Shown here one piece after another: positions 4,774 to 52,080 of a stretch of 64,000 bases of DNA (within the stretch, counting starts at the first letter, position 1; each line of letters opens with the position of its first letter). Source of the stretch: Cutaneotrichosporon cavernicola (Eukaryota > Basidiomycota > Tremellomycetes > Trichosporonales > Trichosporonaceae); assembly GCF_030864355.1 (NCBI RefSeq), contig NC_083396.1:496001-560000 (forward strand), written 5' to 3'. Position numbers and translations under genes: made by a program. The notes below the pieces were generated by a model. That model ran no database searches. It had not been told where the DNA came from and was given only the letters and a program-made list of their open reading frames with translations.

Positions 4774-7700
4774 CTACCCCCCCTCATCCGCACCCTGTGT
4801 GTGATCCGGTGGACTATTGTCCACGTCCCCATCTCCCGCCGCCGCACTCTCCTGACCTCCCGTGCTCGCCTCTCTAGTCCCCCCAGCCTCCTTCCTTGCC
4901 CGCGCTTCGACCAGCTTAGCCTCCATGTCGGTCTGGTGCACTGGCTTGGGCAGGATAGCGTCGGCCCCAGCCTCGCGATACTCGTGCTGGTCCTCCTCGA
5001 GCGCGTTACCCGTACACCCGACGACGAACAGTCGACTCCCGCTCGCGCGAAGTACACGCACAGCCTCGACGCCCGACATCTGAGGCATCTGGTTATCCAG
5101 GAAGACGACGTCGAACTCGTAATCCGCAATGGCGTCGAGCGCGCCCTGCCCGTTATCGGCATTACGCACGTCCGCGCCGAGACGCTGTAGCATGCGAGTC
5201 ATGAGGCGGCGGGTGAGCGTATCGTCGTCGACGACGAGGGCACGCAGCCCGTCTCCGAGTTTGCGGCGGGGCGTGCGGGCCGGACGAACACGGGTGGCGG
5301 GGTGGGGTGGGCCGCAAGTGGGTGGCGGTGGCGGGCCTAGCTGGGACGTGCTTGGCGCTGTCGACGCCGGCTCGATCACGGTCAAGATCGGGGGGTATTC
5401 TGGCGAAGTTCGGCCGCTGGGCGCTGGGGGTGGAGGGCAGGACACTTCCAGTCCCCATCGCTGGTCCCAGTGTACCGAGTTGCAGGAGCTTACGCTCGCG
5501 TTTGAGTTCGCGCGCGAGTGTGTGTGCGCGCCCGCGCCAGAGGCAGAGGGATCGGGCTCGGGTTCGCTCTCCGAGGTCGCGCTCGCACTCACTCTCTCGG
5601 GGAGGGAGGAGAGGTGGCTTCGCCGGGCTCTAGGTTCAGGGGCGCTCGTTCTGCGCTCGTTCAAGAGATCTGGGCCAGCTGGACTCCACCTCATTGGGGC
5701 AGAGGAGGGCCGTTCCAGTCCGCTGACGAGGCTCGGCGAGTCGGGCGCGGCATGTGCCGGCGCGTCAAAGAGGGGGTATTGTAATTCAAACCAGAATGTA
5801 CTGCCCTCTCCAAATTTCGAGTCGACACCAAGTCGGCCACCGCTGATCTTGACGAGCTGCATGACCAGTGCGAGACCCAGTCCCGAACCTTTACCTCCCT
5901 GTCGCCGGCCTATTTCCGTCTGCACGTAGGGGGAGAAAAGGCGATTGTCCACCAAGTCGGAGGGGCGGAGACCGGGCCCAGAGTCGCGTACTTCCACACG
6001 GACGATGGCGAAACGTTTCTCGCGCGAGTGCCGCGACCCACTTGAAGGGGGTATGGAGAGGCGTTTCTCGCTTAGTCCGAGCTCGACGTCATGCTCAATC
6101 GCCGCCGTGCTTGTTCCCAGCGTACCGTCGCTTGGTGGCCCGCCGTCGCTGCGTGCACGCACGTGGGCGTGGTCTGCCACGCCTACACCCACGTTCACGC
6201 CGTCGGGCGCGAGGAGGCACGTCATGACTGTCACGGAACCTGCGCAGGTGAATTTGAGTGCGTTCGATACGAGGTTGCTCAGCATTTGCCTGAGGCGCAT
6301 CTCGTCCCCTACTAGCAGGCCAAGACTGTCAATCCTAGGGTCGAGGACCATACTGAACTCGACGTGGGTTGCGTCCGCTTGACCCCTGTGCGAGAGGGCG
6401 ACGACCTGCACCGACTTGTGGAAGTCGAAGGGCTTGCGCGCCTGCGTAAGTTTTCCCGACTCCATGCGGTTGAACGACAGCACGTCGTTCAACACCTTGG
6501 ATCAGCTTTTGCCCAGTTGCCCAGCTTGGTGTCGTACTCACCTTCTCCATCATGCCCAGACTCGAGCTAAGGCCGTGCACCATGATCTCGTGGTCCTCCT
6601 CCAGGTGCTTGAACACGCCCTCTCCCTCGAGGTTTTGAACTGCCAACATGGCCGTGTTGAGGGGCACGCGCACCTCGTGAAAGATATACGAGACGAACTG
6701 TTTCTTGCTGTGTTCAGCGCGGCGTTCCATAGTCTGCGCGGTCTGCAGTTCGGTATATTGGGTGCGCAGTTGTTGGCGGAGGAGGAAGATCTGCCGGTCG
6801 GCCCGTTCGCGCCAGTACGCCCACAGGCTGATGTAGATGTGATACAGCAGCAGACACACAGGCTGACGAACCCACGGCTGCTGTCTACGCCAGCCAGGGA
6901 GGAACATGATATTCGTCATGATCATGTACACGGCCGCCATCATGACGCAGAGCACGCGCTGGCCCCACAGTCCGATGACTGCGATTGTCGGGAGCCCAAA
7001 TAGCAGCCCGAACATGTACAGGAACATGCGGTTGCCGCACTTGTTCTCCGGCGACCCATCACCATGCTGGTATCCGCAGCGGTACTGCTATCAGCTGGTT
7101 TGCGGGCAGAGGTCCAGCTTGACCCACCATTTCAATGGTCTGCATGTATCCCGTCGACCACGTCGCCAGCAGCACAAATGGCTGGTACAGCCATTGGAAG
7201 CGTCGCGGGCCATTGAAGCCAACCATGAACGGAAGGGGGACGGTGAAGATGCCCACGATACCAATGTACGCGTAGTAATGGTAATCCTCATCTTTGTTCT
7301 GCAGGACCGCAAACAGGGCATACTGGATGAGGAGGAAACACGCCGCGAGCATGGCGCTACTCTTCTCCGCCATCCATCGCTATCGTCAGCCAGATCTTTG
7401 ATATACTCACCTCTCGCGTAAACTGTCGTTCCATGCGTTTGTCAGAAAAGGAGGAATTGGCATAATGAAGCAGCGGAACGAGAATAACGTCTCTCAACCA
7501 ACTCGACACCCCTGGCGTACTAGTCCTCGAACTAGCAACACTAGGCGACTGGATAACACTCTCCTTCTCGATCGTACTGTCGATACTGAACCGCCGTATT
7601 GGACCAAACGACCCATCGACAACAACAGCACTGACGCTGGTAATCTCTCCACTCTCCTCCTCCTCCTCCTCCCTGGGATATCGATACTCGGCATCATCGG

Positions 7701-23017: not shown

Positions 23018-26000
23018 ATGGCTGCGGCGGGCTCAAGCTCGTCCACATCAATGTCCACTGGTGTTGGTGTGGACGCACGCGGCTCGACGGCCTCCACAAC
23101 ACCGCTTTCCCCACAGTCATCCCCGCATTCTCCACGACCCACAGCCACCTCCAAACTCCCTCCATCATCGTCTGCAACCATGGACTCTATCGCAACAGCT
23201 AAGAGCAGTCAATACTCTGCATTCTTGCGCACACCAACAACACCCATCATGACCCACTGTTTTGTCGACTCGCCAACAGAGTTCCCAACACCCTTCGCCT
23301 CCTTTCACAGCTTTGTCGCCCAGCCCAGCTCATTGTCGTCCATGGCTGTTCCTCCTTCACCAGCAAGTGACAAGGCGCCACCAGATATGGACAGAGTCCG
23401 CGGCGTCATTGTCCCAACACAAAGCAAGAAGCGGCCCAGCCCACTATCGCTCCAGGACGGGGGCGTCGAAGTCGAAGAGCCACTCACCTCCAAATCGACC
23501 GAGAGCTGTGGGTGAGGAAGGCGGTGCATGCTGACAACGCAGTCCTGAGCAGCGAGCTCGAGCAACTCAGACGCTCCGTCCACCAGAACCTCCGCGACCG
23601 TCCGTTAGGCATCAGCGTCGAGGACAGCGACTCCGAGTTTGGCGAGGCGGGGTCCAGCATCACTGCATCTCTCAACGACGACATGTGCATCTCGCCGATA
23701 GCGGCTTTGGCAATGGTGCACAGTAGTCCTCAAGCGCTTGTCATCGACACGCGGCCGCGCAAGGACTTTCTGGCCGCGCACGTCGCACAATCAGTGCACG
23801 TCTCCATCCCATCACTCATCTACAGTCGCCTCCGCAGGCAACTGAACGGGCCTGACGCTAAGAGCAGTGTAGCCACGTGGTCCTCGCTCAGCGCATTTGT
23901 CAGCTCATCCGCTGACCGTGCCGTGTGGAACGGCGTAGACCTCAACGCGCACATCGACGTGATAATCGTCGGTGTGGACCGTCACGACGAAGATGCACCA
24001 TGCGCGCTCGCCACCGTCCTTGGACAGGTCGTTTCGATCGGGACGGTGCGCATCCTCAAGGGCGGCTGGGCGGCGGCTGCACCTCTTGTCCAGGTGGAAG
24101 GGCTTCAAGTCACGGGCGAAGGGGGCGGTGCATCGCGCAGCGACGCCATCCCGGTGGCGCTGGGCCCGACAATCTCGCCACCAGAAACAGGCTCTGGCGC
24201 CTCGACGCCGATGGCAATGGCAGTGTCCCCAACAAAACCACGAGGTCAGTTACCCCTGAGTGCGTTCACTGGTGGAGCGCCAGCGCCGAGCCAGATGGTC
24301 AAGCGCCTCAGCGTGTCGAGCCAGGGTAGCACGAGCAGCAGCAGTGGCAGTGGCCCATCCCTCAGCCCCGCGCATCGCAGCCTTCCGCAGCTCTCCCTCA
24401 ACCCGAGGGCACCGCAACCCTCTCGGCGTCCACCACCAAAGCTGAGCCTCCATATCCAACAACCAAATGCGATGCTGGGCTCTGGCGCGGAGCCGAAGAA
24501 GGCGTTCAACTCCCGCACAGCCAAACCTGGCCCGCTGAGGCTCCACATTGGTGACTTGAGCCGACCCAACGCCCCAAGTGGGGCGATGAGTGCGCTACCG
24601 ACCTGTGGTGGGCCGACGGGCCTCACGCCAATACAGCCACTCGCTCAGGCGGCCAGCGCTGGTCTGATGCCGCCAGCCGGCGAGCCGTGGCAGGGGAGCC
24701 TCCGCTCGCCCGTGGTTGCGGGACAGCCGTACTCTGGCGGCTTGTACTCGTCGAGCCTACCGACGCCGTCACCGATGCGCCAGGCGCCGATAAATATCTC
24801 GACAGTCCTTCCAGGCTTTCTCTACCTCGGCCCCGAGATCTCAACGAATACCGACGTGGAGATGCTGGTGTCGATGGGCATACGACGTGTATTGAATGTC
24901 GCGCTCGAGTGTGACGACGACGAGGGTCTCGGCCTCCGCGAATCATTCGAACGCTACTTCCGCATCCCTATGAAGGACACCGTCGAGGAGTCGGGAGTTG
25001 CTAAGGGAATACGGGACGCCTGCGACATCCTGGGTAAGTCGTGCATCTGTTCTGTTGCCTGTCTTCCCTTCTTCCCGAAACGCGACACCTCTTCGCGTCG
25101 AGTTGCCCTGGACTTCTCTCTTCCCACTCTAAAGCTTCCTCACCTTTCTGTTCCTGGCACATCCCTGTTGTCCACTGCTCCGAGACAGTGCTCGCCTGAT
25201 CTCCTAAACTGGTGCATTCTTCCGTGAATAGCATTCCTCACGTGAGGCCAGAGTCTGATCTTGAAGGGTTGTGACGAACCCTTCACCAGAATGCTTCAGG
25301 CGCCATCGCCATCGTCCTTCCCGTCTTTTTCACATGTTTCCATTCCTCTGTCTGCTGTGTTCGGTGCTTCCGAACGGCTTCGGCGCATTCCAGAATGAAC
25401 CTGAGCGAGATGGTGCGGCTGGATTCAGCTCATTGCCTCTCCACTGGCACCGTTCCGGTATCCTTCGAACCCGTTGTCTTCATCGCTCCTGTCTCCTCGT
25501 TGTCTTCATCCCACCCGTCTTCTCAACGCTACACGGACTTTTCATCACCGATCACGGGAGCAGCTTCCCGGGCATTCGGGTTTATACGGAGTGGTGCACG
25601 TATGCCCTGTGCCGTTGCTGTTGACAAGTCTCCGTGTTTGGGAGTCGGGTTCAGCCTTAATGGGCATCATCATGTCGACTCTTCGTGGTACCTACCTTGC
25701 GATTCATCTCTCCTGCTTGCCGCACTCGTGCCTCTTTTTTTTTCTCGATTGTCTCCTGCTGCCCGCTTTGTGTTGTCGGACAATTTGCTGACAAGGTAGA
25801 TGACGCTCGCCTGCACGACGCACCCGTCTATGTGCACTGCAAGGCTGGTCGTTCGCGATCGGTAACTGTTGTCCTTGCTTACCTGATTCACGCAAATGCG
25901 TGGACTCTCAAGACGTCCTACGCCTATGTGGCCGAGCGGCGACACGGCATCTCGCCCAACATCGGTTTCGTAGCTGAGCTGATCCAGTTCGAGGAAACTG

Positions 26001-33059: not shown

Positions 33060-34273
33060 TTACATAAAGTCGTCGTCGCTCCAGCCTTCCTTGGCCCCAT
33101 CGATGGCCTCCTCGGAGAACATGCCATCGTAGGAGCGCGCGGCCTTGTCTGCCGCCCACTGGCGTTTCTGCTCGGTCTCTTCTTGTTGCTGCTGTCAGCT
33201 ATCCATTGGGTGCCTTGGTTAGTCTCCCGCTTCCCCGTACATCTCCTTCGACATTGTGCGAATTGCAGTGGCTAGGATGCGTTACGCGCTACTCTCAGCC
33301 GGTGTAGCAAGGTCAGGCTGAGTACTTTCATACCGTCCCTCACCCCCCTCTTTCTCTCCTCTCCAACGCTACTCCGCTCCCGTCTCCTTCCCACGTTCCG
33401 CTCTCCACTCTTTGTCCCCCACTCGGGCCCCACCGCCCACCCCACAACACCAGCCGACTCACCCGGCTAATCGCCTCAGCCTTCTTCTTCCGTCCCTCAA
33501 CGCGCAGGCGCTCCTGCCGCTCCGACTCGTGGTCCACCTCGCGCTCAACCTTGGTCTTGTTCAACCGGTTCACGACCACATTGTCCCGGGTGCTGATCTT
33601 GACGCGCTTGACCTTCTTGTCCGAGTGGAACGAGACCTGCCCCACGGCCATGTCACCCGTCTTCTTGAGGTTCGTGAACGGCGTGTAGATGATCTGCGTC
33701 AGAGATTGTCAGTGCAACACACACTGTAATGTTGTCCTTCTTGTTGCCTGGTGTCAGCTAGTGTAGCCATCTCAGCTGAGGCGACACTGGCGGTGACAGA
33801 CTCAGCGTCCGTCTTCCCCCAACCCCTTCCTGCCGCACCCCACCTTCCTCCACCTCCCACGACCACCCAACACCCCTAATCCCAGTGGATACTAACCCTC
33901 GATACTGTTGGCCTTGACGAGCTGCGCAGCGTCATTCACCAGCGCGGCCGGGAGCGCATTCCAGGCCCCGTGCGGCTCGTCCTCGCTCTGTCGCAAATAA
34001 ACGTGCGCCGAAGACAACTTGCTGCCGTCAGCTGCCATTGCGCAAGGCAGCTCACTCTACGTGGAACCAAACATCAGTGGGCAGGCCGTACTTGATCAGA
34101 TCCTCGTCTGTCATCAGCCCCGCCAACTGCCAACGCACTCTCGACCTTATCCCGTCCCCTGCCGTCAGACAGCTCTCACCTCAACTCACATGTAGATAGT
34201 CACTGGCGGTGAAACCGCTAGGGTCAGCTCATCCCACCTATATCGCACCATTGGACGTGAAGAACAGCACCAT
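33060..34273 (-). CDS. CCDC25 / Jlp2 homologue (NFACT-R domain)
   Basis: Eight exons on the minus strand: 34273-34249, 34217-34190, 34158-34139, 34107-34056, 34021-33897, 33747-33725, 33693-33463 and 33191 (or 33188)-33060. The product is 211 residues, close to the ~208 of animal CCDC25. It starts MVLFFTSNAVSPPVTIYMGR and continues with [69 protein letters not shown] and a charged coiled coil. It ends EGWSDDDFM. Each junction restores the conserved family sequence, so the small exons are well supported. The family is related to the RNA/DNA-binding domain of ribosome quality-control NEMF proteins; yeast Jlp2 has no firmly known role. Introns 1, 2, 3 and 6 are each exactly 31 nt and intron 4 is 34 nt. 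It shares a 207-bp divergent promoter with the next gene. Confidence 0.93.
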
Positions 34274-38298: not shown

Positions 38299-39492
38299 AT
38301 GTCTAGCACACCAGCCCGCTCCTCTCCTTCCCCCTTCACCCACGAGGATGGAGAGGGTAAGCCTGTCTGTGTTTTGTGAGCTCCGAGTGCTCTGTCAAGC
38401 TGATGTCAGCTGCGCCTCGTCTCCGGGTGCGGACGCAATGTACGCCACGGCCGCCGCGAGTGTCGGTGCGGCGCTCGCGGACGCACACATTCCCGTCGTG
38501 TACGGTGGCGGCCGACGTGGACTCATGGGTGAGTCTCTCGTTTCTCTTTCTTCTGTTCCTTCTTCCTCGCCACTTCCCCGCCACCATCACCGTGCTCGGC
38601 GTCATTGCGGTGAAGCCGCGGCACTTCCGACCTTCCTCCCCACCAACATCACTAAGCTCTCACCTTCGTCCGCGACCTCAGCTGACCCTAGGCGTCGTCT
38701 CGCACGCCGCCCTCGAGGCCGGTGGACGCGTACATGGAGTCCTTCCCAGAGCCCTCATGGCACGTGCGGCCGAGAGCACGCCAGTGCCCTCGCGCGACGC
38801 CAACCCCGCGCACGCCGCCAACGCCAAGTCTGCCGAAGGTATTGGCAAGGACCTCCTCGCGGACAACTACGATGGCCGACTCACGATGGAAGTGGTGGGC
38901 GGCATGCATGAGGTGCGTTCTACTACTAGGAGTGACTGACAGCAGCGCAAGGCCAAGATGGCGCAGCTGAGCACTGGCGGATTCGTCGTGCTCCCAGGTG
39001 GGTACGGGACCTTGGAGGAGTTGCTCGAGATGGTCACGTGGAACCAGATTGGGATGCACTCGCTCCCAGTCATCGTGCTGAACAGTACGTCCCAGCTGTA
39101 TTGACGCGGTTAGAGCTGACACCAGTGAACAACTTCTACTCGCCGCTGCGTACTCTCTTCGAGGGCGCTGTCGCGTCGGGCTTCATCAAGGCCGAGAACC
39201 TCTCGCTTCTGCGTATCATCGATTTGCCCAGCGAGGGGAACACGAACGCGGCGCGTGCGGCCGAGTGGGGGCCCGCGGCCGTCGAGGCGCTCCGCCAGTG
39301 GTCTCTCCCAGTGAGTATGTATGACGGGAGGAGGTATGCCGCTTCTGAGCTCCACGAAGTGTTGCCACGTCGTTCTCCTCCCACGCAGCTACGGTCGCTT
39401 TGATAACAGCTGACAGCAGAACGGCGCTGGCTACGGGTTCAAGTGGGACGACGTCAAGCCGGCCGACCTGGGCCTCAAGGCGAGCGCATAGA
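38299..39492 (+). CDS. LOG-family protein (cytokinin-type phosphoribohydrolase)
   Basis: Six exons: 38299-38375, 38410-38528, 38692-38912, 38943-39084, 39126-39310 and 39421-39492, giving 271 residues. The Rossmann fold is clear: [68 protein letters not shown] (the PGGxGTxxE signature) and [18 protein letters not shown]. The family splits ribose 5-phosphate from nucleotide monophosphates. Plant and some fungal members make active cytokinins, but many act on general nucleotides. It lacks the activity its old name lysine decarboxylase suggests. Two introns are only 34 and 30-33 nt. An aminodeoxychorismate lyase reading frame follows within ~75 bp on the same strand. Confidence 0.9.
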
Positions 39493-40448: not shown

Positions 40449-43168
40449 CTAGAACCGCCGCTGCATGAAACCCCCCGCGTACATTGGCGACTGGGGTGGG
40501 CCCTGCTGCTGGTGCTGCGATACATAGTCGTATCCGGGGTGCACATGTGTTGCGGGCGAGTACATTGGCTCGCGCTGCGGACTGCCGTACGCGTTGTTGT
40601 ACCCCGTCTGCTGAAACGGTATACGGTTCGAGTACGATGGTCCCGCGTAGTCGCTCTCCGTTGCGGACCACTGGTCGTTGTGGCTGTGGCTGTGGCTTTG
40701 GCTCACCGACTGCGAGTGCACGTGCGCGTTTAACTGCGCCAGTGCGGGGTGGAAATGGCGAGGCACCTCGTCCGCGTACCCGTTCGAACTGGGGGCACGG
40801 TGTGCAGCACCCGGCACACCGTTCCACTCGTCCCGACGGAAGGGGCTCTGACCGCGCCCCGCGGATGCCAAGGACGCGCGACGGGCAAATTCGAACCGCG
40901 ACGTTGTCCGGGGCACGTCCGCGTCCGAGGTTCCCGAGTCAACCGTGCTTGGCTCCTCCGATGTCGGCAGCGACAACGTCTCCACCTGCGACGACGGGGC
41001 GAAGGGCGAGAACGACCCCGTGTACACGTACGGTCCGTTTCGCTCCCCGCCCACTCGTGAGATGAGCGACGCCAGCGGAATGCCCAGCTTTGGCAGCTCT
41101 TGGAACAAGGGGTCGAAAGGCGACGGCTCGAACACGCCCATTCTTTGGGCAAACTCCAGCATCCGCTGCAACTCGTCGTCGTCTAACCGCAGCGAGAATT
41201 CGAAGCCCTGCTTGCGCGCGTCGGGCTCCATGAACACGTCGTCGAAGTCGGGGTACGGCGAGTGGATGGGGTACTCGGTCGATGCGGGCCGCTTGGGCGC
41301 CAAGAACTCGCGGGATGGGCCGGCCTCTGGTGCCTCTTCCTCGCGCATAGGCAGGCTCGCCTTGAGGGGCGACGCCTGCTTGGGCGGGGTGGATTCGGGC
41401 TCTGAAGGTGGCGGTGTAGGCTGAGACGGCGTGCTGGTGACAGTGGATGGCGGGGCCAGGCCTGGTGGCGGTGCGAGTCCAGGAGGGGTTGCACGTACAG
41501 CCTTCGGGGCAGCCGGAGCCGCCTCGGAAGGGGTCGCCTTGGTGGCCGTCGTCGAGGCGCTCTGCGTCAACGAGTTCAGGGACGCAACGCTCTTCGGTGG
41601 CGCACCAATCGCAGACTGTGTCATCGTGATGGTCACAGCCTTCTTCTTGGGCGACGCCGACGCGCTCGTGACGCCAGGTCCAGAGCTAATGCTCGAACTG
41701 CCGCTTCTCCCGCGCGCCATGCTCTGCGCCTTCTCCTTCTTCCTGTCCAGCTTGCTGTGCACCGCTGGGACAGGCGATGGAGTCGGTGGAGGAAATGCGG
41801 ACGAGTTACGACCACCTAAAGGGATGAGGTTGCTGTTGATCTTGGACATGGGGCGCGACGAGCCGACCGGTGCGATGCGTCCCCCGTTCGCTGATCCTGG
41901 ACGAGCCGCCTGAGGCCGTGGCATACCCCAGCTAGCGGTCCGAGGTAAGGCGTTCGAGGAGTCTGAATCGTCCACCGACGAGGGCTTCGGCCATGCCGAC
42001 TTCTGAGTTAACGGTGGTGGCTGGATCGGCTGTTGCTTCTGCCGCGCATCATACTCGGCGGGTCGAGTCAAAGCCGTGATGAGGTCGGTCCGAGTGAAGG
42101 AATCGCCTTCGCCGCCCCACTCGTGGAGGTTCTGACACCCCTGGTAGTCGCACTTGGTGCCGCGGAGGAACGCGTCGCAGTAACGTGTCGTCCCGTACGA
42201 TGCATGGAGTAGCGTCCCCGGTGGGCCCTGCGGCGCAGGAATGCCGTCCAAAGCTGCAATCGCACGCGCTGCGTCTTCGCGTCGAATGTAGACAATGTAT
42301 ATGCCGGTCGACGTCGCAGCCGAGTCGGGTGAAGGGCCGGGCGAGGGCGAGCTGACGTTCGTGCGGTCGCGAAGGTGCAACCGTGCAATCTTGCCGTACT
42401 GTCCGAAGAACTCGTTGGAGCGTAGGATGGAGACGGCTTCTTCGGGCGAACCCGATCCTGGGATTTTCATGCCCACGACGTAGACAGAGTTCTTCATGAC
42501 AATGCGCGTGTCCAGCATGGAGCGTCGACCGATTGCCTCGAGCTGTTTGGCGATCTTTGCTCTCTTCGCCTTCTTGTCCTTTGCCTTGCGCACTCTGGAG
42601 GTCAGCTAAGCGCTATCCGCGGACGCACTCTTCAAAGTCGACCGGCTCATACACCACGCTCTTTGGGTCGTACTTGCGACGACATCCTGGGCAGCGTGGG
42701 TCATCGCGAAGCAGCTTGTGGTAGCAGAACTGGCAGATCTGAATGTCAGTACAACTCCCTTGGAAACCCAGTTCAGCACGCGCTGCGCACTCACGTCGAG
42801 ACCACACTGGCAGGGCTCAAAGTTTTGATCCGAGAGGTCGAGGGGTTCGGCGCAGACCATGCAGTCTGGGTCGTCCTGCGGCGTGAGTAAACGGAACATG
42901 GGGCCTCGATCATCGATTTGCCGCCCAGTGGGCAAGAGGGCTGTGCGTCGAGCCGGCGGCACAACAATGCGCCACCCATGTCGCACGGCGTGCCACTGGG
43001 ACAGACTGGACGCACCTCGTCATCGCTCCAGGCAACATCTTGAAGCCCCTTGAGAATGTCACGGTTGACGCCAGAAGAGGAGGTGCCGCCACTGAACGCG
43101 CCGCGCAAAGCGGCGAGTGGCTGCTGGCCGGTTGTAGGGTTGACGGGAAGGGGGTGGACGGTTGGCAT
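40449..43168 (-). CDS. NOT4: NOT4/CNOT4 E3 ubiquitin ligase of the CCR4-NOT complex
   Basis: Exons: 43168-43016, 42875-42795, 42738-42629 and 42594-40449, giving 829 residues. The C4C4 RING at about residues 54-105 reads CMVCAEPLDLSDQNFEPCQC, GLDICQFCYHKLLRDD and CPGCRRKYDP, assembled over two introns. The NOT4 linker (RKAKDKKAKRAKIAKQL) and an RRM follow (NSVYVVGM, FFGQYGKIARLHL, GIYIVYIRREDAARAI). Then comes the CCCH finger (TTRYCDAFLRGTKC, LHEWGGEGDSF). The C-terminal ~550 residues are disordered. NOT4 ubiquitinates ribosomal and other proteins and links mRNA decay to translation quality control. Domain order is that of the whole family, so the call is firm. Intron 3 is only 34 nt. It diverges from BUD13 across 710 bp. 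Confidence 0.94.
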
Positions 43169-43878: not shown

Positions 43879-45265
43879 ATGTCGAACAACATGAAGGCCT
43901 ACTTGGCCTCGAAGTGCGTCAGCTCTTACCTTCTCAGCATGCAAGCTGACATCAGATACATGTCGGGGCCCAAGGCGGACATGATTCTCGAACACGCGGG
44001 CGTAAAGAAGAAGAGAAAGCGTCCAAAGAACGAGGACTACACCGCCACGGTTGCCGAAGGAGACGGCTTGGTGCTGCAGCACGCGGACGACTGGAGGAAG
44101 TCGAAGCGGAAGGATATGGACCTCGATGCAGATGACGCTCCAGGTAAGCTTAGGGGACTAGACGGCGAGCTCACGGCAGTGGTCGGCAAGGGGGCTACGA
44201 CGTTCAAGAAGGCTACGTCGGCGTGGTCGACTGTCGGCTCGACTGCGCTACCTGTCTCCTCCCGCGCCTCCCGCGTTAAGGAGGAGCCGCGCGAGAATGA
44301 AGCAGGGCCATCGACTGCGGCGGATGCTGTCGATCCCAAGCCACAGCTCACAAAGCGTCGAGGCGGTCTGCGCACCGCTGCTGAGGAGGCTGAGGAGTCG
44401 GCGGCGGCGGCGGCGGCTGCCGACCTGTCGCCGTCGCCAGAACCCGACGCACAAGCGACGACGGTACACCGTGACCAGGCTGGTCGTGTGCTTGATGTTG
44501 AGCAGCTCCGCGCCGAGGCGAGGCAAGCTGAACTCGAGGAGCAATTGAAGGAGAAGGAGCGCGAGGAATGGACAAAGGGCGTGAGACAGCGCGAAGAGCG
44601 TGAACGGCAAGCCAGGGAGGAGCGGTCTATGGCTTCGATGGATGTTGCTCGGTGAGTGTGCCCAGGAGATTGTTTTCTGTGTGGTGCGAGCGGCGCTCCA
44701 GGTGTGACCGCGGCGGAATGCGGTATGGCCGGGGCCATGTTTACGGAACTGGTTGCACAGGCGCTGTGCTGGCTCGATGAACGGCGACAACGGGTGGGCG
44801 GCGCTGACGGCAGACGCGCAGACGACGCAGCCATGAACGCCGAACTGAGGCAGATCGAGCGAGAGGACGACCCTGCAGCGCAATTTCTTACGGTGAGCCT
44901 TGCCTGTCACTGTTGGTCTCTCTGCTTCAGGTGCCTACGGATACGTCTGTTTGGACGCGTCCAATGACCGATCCCGGCGCCGCGCCAAGAAGCTACGATT
45001 CACCGATACTGACGCCAGTCCAAGAAGCGTAAGAAAGGACGGAAACGTCATGCGTACAAGGGCTCGTATCCGGAGAACCGCTTCGGCATTGCGCCAGGGT
45101 ACCGGTGGGATGGCGTTGGTGAGTAATCAAGCGTGGCATAAGGGACGACAGCATGAGCTGACGGCAGACCGGTCAACGGGCTTCGAGAAGAAGTGGTTGC
45201 TGGCTCAGAATGCGCGCGATCGCCGAAAGTACGAGAGCGACAGGTATGACATGGAGGATTTGTAG
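43879..45265 (+). CDS. BUD13: BUD13/CWC26 pre-mRNA splicing factor (RES complex)
   Basis: Exons: 43879-43913, 43956-44143, 44180-44651, 44814-44892, 45019-45118 and 45168-45265, giving 323 residues. It starts [20 protein letters not shown], the family N-terminus, and has a basic and a long Ala/Glu-rich coiled-coil middle ([20 protein letters not shown]). The conserved C-terminus is [40 protein letters not shown] and [16 protein letters not shown]13 forms the RES complex with Snu17 and Pml1 and promotes B-complex activation, especially on introns with weak signals. The intron at 44144-44179 is 36 nt, a multiple of three and free of stops, so it could be retained as 12 extra residues. Confidence 0.93.
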
Positions 45266-51277: not shown

Positions 51278-52080
51278 CTACATCATTCCCATGCCGGGCA
51301 TGCCGGGCACTGTATTGTTAGCTGGACTCTCGGCTTAGCTTACTTCCACCGCCCATGGGCATAGACGGGCTCTTGGTCTCATCGTCAACGACGCAAGCTT
51401 CCGAGGTGGTGAGGAGGGAGGCGACACCCGAAGCGTCAGAAAGAGCGGTGCGAACGACCTTGAGGGGGTCGAGGATACCGGCGGCAATCATGTCGCGGTA
51501 CTGCGAGGTGGCGGCGTCGTAGCCCCAGTTGAACTTGTCGGCAGCGATAAACTCGTCCGAGAGGAGACGGCCAACGACAACAGTGCCCTCCTCGCCGGCG
51601 TTGTCGACAATGGTGCGAACAGGGCGGCGGATGGCGTTGCGGATGATGCTGACGCCGAGCTTCTGGTCAAAGTTCTCAACATCGAGGTCCTCGAGCTGTG
51701 CCGAGGCCTTGAGGAGAGCAGTGCCACCACCCGGAACGATACCCTCCTCAACGGCAGCGCGGGTTGCGTTGAGGGCGTCGTCGTAGCGGTCCTTCTTCTC
51801 TCCGACCTCAACCTCCGAGTGGCCACCGACCTTGATGACGGCAACACCGCCGCCAAGCTTGGCCAGGCGCTCCTGAAGCTTGGTGCGGTCGTAGTCCGAG
51901 GTGCTGGGGTCGGCAATGACGCCGCGGATCTGCTCGCAGCGAGAAGCAATGGTCTGCTTGTCACCGCTGCCGTTGAGAACGATAGTGTCGTCCTTGGTGA
52001 CGGTGGCCGAGCCAGTCTGGCCAAACATGTCGGGAGTGGCCTTGTCAAGCTTGACGTCAAGCTCGTCAGTGAAGACGGTG

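Follow-up and report, generated by a model that had tools for sequence, protein, structure and literature searches.

A lower edge of intron length near 30-31 nt and a class of AGCT-bearing introns in Cutaneotrichosporon cavernicola

Introduction

Four of the seven introns in the CCDC25 homologue of Cutaneotrichosporon cavernicola have the same length, 31 nt, and the locus raises the question of how short an intron can be in this species. A sequence-only reading of the window, i.e., the whole stretch of 64,000 nt analysed here (NC_083396.1, positions 496,001 to 560,000), had taken the repeated value as a hard lower limit of the spliceosome. The four introns could also be an oddity of one gene, or the segments might not be introns at all. 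The window was therefore analysed together with 28 other stretches of the same genome (L001-L028; 323,486 nt in total), and motif searches covered the genome of 20.21 Mb in 8 contigs.

Gene structure of the CCDC25 homologue

The gene is located on the minus strand, and its features are as follows.

33060..34273, minus strand: CCDC25 (NFACT-R domain) homologue, CDS 34273-33060, 8 exons, 210 aa when spliced
34218..34248, minus strand: intron 1 of 31 nt in phase 1, with nt 25 as the branch A
34159..34189, minus strand: intron 2 of 31 nt in phase 2, with nt 25 as the branch A
34108..34138, minus strand: intron 3 of 31 nt in phase 1, with nt 25 as the branch A; translated in the public model of C. 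cavernicola
34022..34055, minus strand: intron 4, 34 nt, GTGAGCT...AGCTGAC class, with 10-nt arms complementary but for 1 mismatch (MFE -16.7 kcal/mol)
33748..33896, minus strand: intron 5, 149 nt
33694..33724, minus strand: intron 6 of 31 nt in phase 0, with nt 26 as the branch A
33189..33462, minus strand: intron 7, 274 nt

All seven introns have GT...AG ends, and none has a length that is a multiple of three. The five short ones carry CTGAC or CTGAT, and their final G follows the branch A by 5-6 nt. The coordinates first proposed for introns 1, 2, 3 and 6, each 31 nt long, proved right, and so did the length of 34 nt for intron 4 (34055-34022). The sequences of the four 31-nt introns differ from one another.

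The spliced product matched the NFACT-R_1 profile (PF05670) over residues 1-114 with 110.5 bits. The search of the whole genome with the same profile gave no match, probably as a result of the introns that interrupt the gene. The best protein matches were those of C. cavernicola (91%), C. spelunceum (88%, a shorter model) and, over the full length, Vanrija albida (85%) and Apiotrichum porosum (84%). In the alignment of 13 relatives, 10 agree with the proposed splicing through introns 1-4, and the residues restored by splicing of introns 1-3 are in register in 11. The two exceptions are P0001, in which exon 2 is skipped and intron 3 retained, and the Cryptotrichosporon argae model (P0022), which deviates around introns 1-3. 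The C. spelunceum model (P0004) agrees through intron 3 and is missing the part that separates intron 3 from intron 4.

The public C. cavernicola model of CCDC25 skips exon 2 and reads the 31-nt intron 3 as coding. It contains MVLFFTSNGDGIRSRVRWQLAGLMTDEDL, which is reproduced when the donor of intron 1 is joined to the acceptor of intron 2 and intron 3 is kept. Outside the region of introns 1-3 this model differs from the spliced product by 1 residue. The identity of 91% is mostly due to the introns. The annotated UBC9 of the same species, whose gene has predicted introns of 31, 44, 35, 55, 35 and 34 nt, matches the complete spliced query with 100% identity, and its public model is right, including the 31-nt intron. 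UBC9 thus refutes the notion that 31-nt introns are invariably lost from public annotation.

Other short introns in the window and protein evidence

Further short introns or intron-like segments of the window are given below.

7380..7410, minus strand: 31-nt intron in a putative histidine kinase gene, called by the flat-prior gene finder
42595..42628, minus strand: intron of 34 nt in the NOT4 homologue, for which only the RING domain was matched; located in the sequence
51310..51343, minus strand: 34-nt intron in HSP60, a GTAAGCT...AGCTAAC variant of the AGCT class
38376..38409, plus strand: 34-nt intron-like segment in the LOG gene, a GTGAGCT...AGCTGAT variant; excision joins VCV to FCASSPG
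38913..38945, plus strand: predicted intron in the LOG homologue, 33 nt if the branch-to-AG distance is 6; excision joins GGMHE to RKAKM
23508..23542, plus strand: 35-nt intron in a putative phosphatase gene, located in the sequence
44144..44179, plus strand: 36-nt intron-like segment in BUD13, a GTAAGCT...AGCTCAC variant of the AGCT class

The introns named earlier in the histidine kinase (7410-7380), NOT4, HSP60 and phosphatase genes were thus found again at matching lengths, as were both LOG segments, for the second of which a range of 30-33 nt had been given. The VCV/FCASSPG junction presumably resembles the start of a LOG-like protein. The BUD13 segment is present as well, but its length is a multiple of three, it contains no stop and the gene finder treated it as coding, so that it may be retained. 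According to Pfam, BUD13 is a pre-mRNA-splicing factor of the RES complex, and retention of the 36-nt segment would add 12 residues to it.

Protein evidence beyond CCDC25 came from four proteins picked for their conservation among genes with introns of 33 nt or less. Alignments to PDB sequences covered the junctions of the 31-, 35-, 35- and 34-nt introns in UBC9, of the 33-, 36- and 35-nt introns in PRMT1, of the 35-, 33- and 36-nt introns in medium-chain acyl-CoA dehydrogenase and of the 32-nt intron in xylitol/sorbitol dehydrogenase. None of these 11 junctions, all from introns of 36 nt or less, coincided with an alignment gap; the closest gap lay 11 residues away from the 32-nt junction.

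These results bear on the possibility that the search for open frames has created false short introns, some of the segments being coding insertions or retained. Intron 3 of the public CCDC25 model and the open BUD13 segment would fit such an explanation, but the ungapped junctions in the four chosen proteins and the register of introns 1-3 in 11 of 13 CCDC25 relatives argue against it. Moreover, the retention of any one of CCDC25 introns 1-6 leads to a stop by codon 115 (for intron 7, only at codon 209). We consider this explanation very improbable and infer that these segments are spliced in the cell.

Intron length distribution

Intron lengths were obtained with a semi-Markov gene finder whose length prior was flat between 12 and 400 nt. 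A lighter setting chained false introns through intergenic DNA and was replaced by heavier intron penalties. In the 323,486 nt, 119 genes with 314 introns of a median length of 45 nt were predicted; the CCDC25 gene itself, whose exons are tiny, was missed. No intron of 12-27 nt was predicted, and the shortest lengths were represented by 1 (28 nt), 3 (30 nt), 13 (31 nt), 8 (32 nt), 12 (33 nt), 15 (34 nt), 26 (35 nt) and 10 (36 nt) introns. The lone 28-nt intron ends in GAG and is doubtful. The most common length was 35 nt (26/314).

The length edge is not produced by decoy donors. Six runs, each with another kind of decoy donor, gave 24-32 false introns each, with 0, 2, 3, 0, 1 and 0 of 12-27 nt and 1, 0, 1, 1, 1 and 0 of 30-36 nt. 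Introns longer than 60 nt are partly false, as 112 were predicted against about 23 decoys per run. Cruder motif counts in 264 kb showed the edge as well: GTRNGT...CTRAY...YAG had 12 matches at 31 nt, compared with 0-1 for each of the five controls with a mutated motif, and a further count had 18 matches at 20-30 nt (control 16) and 13 at 31 nt (control 2).

A sharp lower edge of intron length near 31 nt in this genome is supported by these analyses. The floor is 30-31 nt and not exactly 31, because three 30-nt introns and the doubtful 28-nt one were predicted; the hard limit of 31 nt proposed earlier has to be relaxed accordingly. Of the peak or edge at 31 nt that had been expected, the edge was found, but there is no peak, with 13 introns of 31 nt against 26 of 35 nt.

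The distribution also bears on the idea that 31 is an oddity of the CCDC25 gene, with introns of shared origin and no genome-wide limit. The equal length of 4 of its 7 introns speaks for it, but the edge is present across the sampled genome and the four introns are unlike in sequence. At the rate of 13/314 per intron, the chance of four 31-nt introns in a seven-intron gene is about 9e-5; with seven introns in every one of the roughly 7,700 genes, the expected number of such genes would be about 0.7 at most. Such a gene is not very improbable once the floor exists, so the four introns need no special cause; we give the single-gene explanation very little credence.

Branch site position and spliceosomal components

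The CTRAY motif occurs in 277 of the 314 predicted introns, and 37 have none in reach. The distance from the branch A to the final G was 6 nt in 148 of the 277. Among introns of at most 60 nt with a branch-to-AG distance of 4-10, none had 20-22 nt between the 5' splice site and the branch A, while 2 had 23 nt and 13 had 24 nt. In three introns the only CTRAY lies 12 or 21 nt from the donor and 16-37 nt before the AG; this motif is unlikely to be their branch site.

The genome-wide search for GTGAGTN{6,23}GCTGAC gave 1161 matches against 61 for the backward pattern. Among the 100 matches listed, all from contig 1, the donor-to-branch distance was 16-22 nt in 4, 23 nt in 6, 24 nt in 7, 25 nt in 14 and 26 nt in 15. 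Upstream of the branch site there is a mild pyrimidine richness (0.53-0.60 at -20 to -12); there is no room for a pyrimidine tract after the branch A because the AG follows only about 6 nt later.

In two largely separate samples, which overlap slightly on contig 1, donor-to-branch distances of 29-31 nt were scarcer than those of 28 and of 32 nt, forming a trough. Among the 100 GTGAGT...GCTGAC matches listed there were 12 at 28 nt, 3, 3 and 6 at 29-31 nt and 10 at 32 nt; the introns of the gene-finder sample outside the AGCT class gave 18, then 5, 4 and 4, and 12.

The analysis of spliceosomal components revealed two copies of U2 snRNA with the usual branch-binding letters, one copy of U6 snRNA and matches to Prp18, Slu7 and SF1. 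A U2AF65-like match of 241 bits, in a single exon, lay under the whole-protein cut-off. The Rfam model of U1 found no match in this genome, nor in the control genomes, and the same was true of the U12 snRNA model. With these matches, nothing points to a stripped-down spliceosome.

Minor-spliceosome RNA genes have been reported in C. oleaginosum (PMC7072748). The predicted introns of C. cavernicola have a GTRAGT-like donor and a CTRAY branch site, and the U12-type signature was absent from their matrices. The U12-type consensus is RTATCCTT for the donor and TCCTTAAC for the branch site.

Judging from the sequence features described, these are very probably ordinary U2-type introns at the shortest form that the spliceosome of this species accepts, with a minimum set by two spacings. 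The 30-31 nt would arise from a distance of 23-24 nt between the first intron base and the branch A and one of 5-6 nt between the branch A and the final G; the floor would lie at this value because the two minimum spacings plus one add up to it. The cause may be steric. The first spacing would most likely reflect the RNA needed between the 5' splice site, bound by U1 and then by U6, and the branch site, bound by U2/SF3b, and the second how near the AG may come to the branch helix. Recognition would proceed by intron definition.

A class of introns with AGCT-bearing donor and branch sites

Some of the short introns have a donor GTGAGCT and a branch site AGCTGAC. The pattern GTGAGCTN{5,21}AGCTGAC, outside which donor-to-branch distances above 33 fell, gave 733 matches in the whole genome against 7 for the backward control, while GTGAGCV...BGCTGAC, which covers nine further choices of letters at these two sites, gave 158 in total against 58. 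Among the 100 matches listed, from contig 1, the distance from the donor to the branch A peaked at 27 nt, with none at 17-23 nt and the first at 24 nt, and it was 26-29 nt in 84.

In the gene-finder sample, GTGAGC donors are concentrated in introns of 34-36 nt (12/51; 27 over all lengths). The wider pattern GTRAGCT...AGCTNAY...YAG was found 19 times in the 323 kb, 18 times at a gap of 13-17 where 5-60 was allowed, against 1 for a false donor; eleven other letter combinations and a scrambled branch gave 0-12 each, with 0-4 at gaps of 12-18. Among introns of up to 60 nt, every one of the 16 that carry +6C and +7T has A at branch position -5 and G at -4. Over all lengths, the comparison of +6C+7T with branch AG gave 17 and 1 versus 52 and 184 (p 7e-10 in Fisher's test, post hoc).

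CCDC25 intron 4, the HSP60 intron, the LOG segment 38376-38409 and the BUD13 segment are members or variants of this class, and so are three UBC9 introns supported by protein alignment. The introns of 34-36 nt, which had been read as part of the same short series as those of 31 nt, are indeed short, but they belong in part to this discrete class.

The loops between the two ends are unrelated among the 100 matches listed, with a mean identity of 0.254 against 0.251 +- 0.003 in shuffles and a best pair of 0.625 against a mean best of 0.64 in shuffles. TGA and ATG trimers occur in these loops at about twice the expected number (44 and 39 in the 100 listed), at no fixed position.

As a tentative explanation, the donor and the branch site may be recognised as a matched pair, GTGAGCT with AGCTGAC, at a distance of at least 24 and mostly 26-29 nt and with a free loop. 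If true, this would mean an intron definition that reads both sites together, by pairing or through an AGCU-specific bridging factor.

The possibility that the AGCT arms pair in the RNA, forming a short hairpin that joins the donor and the branch site, is also only tentatively put forward. AGCT is self-complementary and GT/AC add two pairs; the strongest of 132 position pairs in introns of at most 40 nt was that of +7 with branch -5 (z 3.5); and the A and G in all 16 sampled +6C+7T introns and the fold of CCDC25 intron 4 (-16.7 kcal/mol) agree with pairing. However, compensatory combinations were not favoured, with 15 of 57 pairing against 17.8 expected (57 of 65 taken from the 100 GTGAGCV...BGCTGAC matches listed), and among the matches listed the pairs past +7 were near chance (31 against 25.2, 23 against 25.1 and 19 against 25.3). 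Moreover, +7 and -5 were without association among the GTGAGT matches listed (30 against 27.7), and introns of 34-36 nt fold barely better than shuffles (-6.68 against -5.71). A pairing of +7 with branch -5 across all short introns was discarded, as it was not repeated in the genome-wide GTGAGT list.

Introner elements are known as many introns with like ends. The AGCT class could accordingly consist of old mobile or introner-like copies of which the terminal inverted repeats survive. In favour of such an origin, the inverted copy of the donor (GTGAG) is nearly a branch site (CTCAC), and the class has 733 copies with narrow spacing and 7-nt mirrored ends. The class shares like ends with introner elements, but its loops have no family resemblance: whereas introner copies are alike along their length, the 100 of 733 members listed are not, and there is neither kinship of loops nor any recent copy among them. 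We regard a mobile origin as unlikely.

Discussion

Ultra-short introns are a known kind. Cryptococcus neoformans, which also belongs to the Tremellomycetes (PMC10568926), resembles C. cavernicola in its many short introns, for which a size class of 20-40 nt has been analysed (PMC11913375); the portion of that source considered here gives an average of 56 nt and states neither a hard floor nor an AGCT-ended class (PMC11913375). Ciliates and nucleomorphs likewise have a narrow distribution at a very short length, with about 25 nt in Paramecium and 18-20 nt in nucleomorphs (PMC5014332) against the floor of 30-31 nt in C. cavernicola, where, in contrast, a clear CTRAY lies mostly 6 nt from the AG. 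Because some ciliates have introns of about 25 nt (PMC5014332), the floor is a limit of this species and not of spliceosomes.

Among fungi, the introns of Fusarium core genes have GT-AG ends and CTRAY as here, with a reported range of 42-529 nt (PMC5677156), and median intron lengths of 50 nt in Peltaster and 45 nt in Pneumocystis have been given. Human ultra-short introns, for which a threshold of 65 nt was used (PMC4463651), are likewise an unusually short class that is removed by the spliceosome.

In the literature searched, neither intron floors in Trichosporonales nor introns with AGCT-bearing ends as a class were the subject of a paper. A fungal floor of 30-31 nt with a two-part cause, and the AGCT class, were thus not found in it.

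For the annotation of this genome, the results mean that gene models can fail at such introns, as three of them are modelled wrongly in the public CCDC25 entry of C. cavernicola. Limits that annotation software sets on intron length may be linked to such errors. Sequence reads for C. cavernicola are public (DRA016334-DRA016337, BioProject PRJDB15446), and RNA-seq went into the published annotation (PMC10568926).

The floor, if it is set by the two spacings, would put a measured lower limit on the ways in which a substrate can be held by the spliceosome of a fungus.
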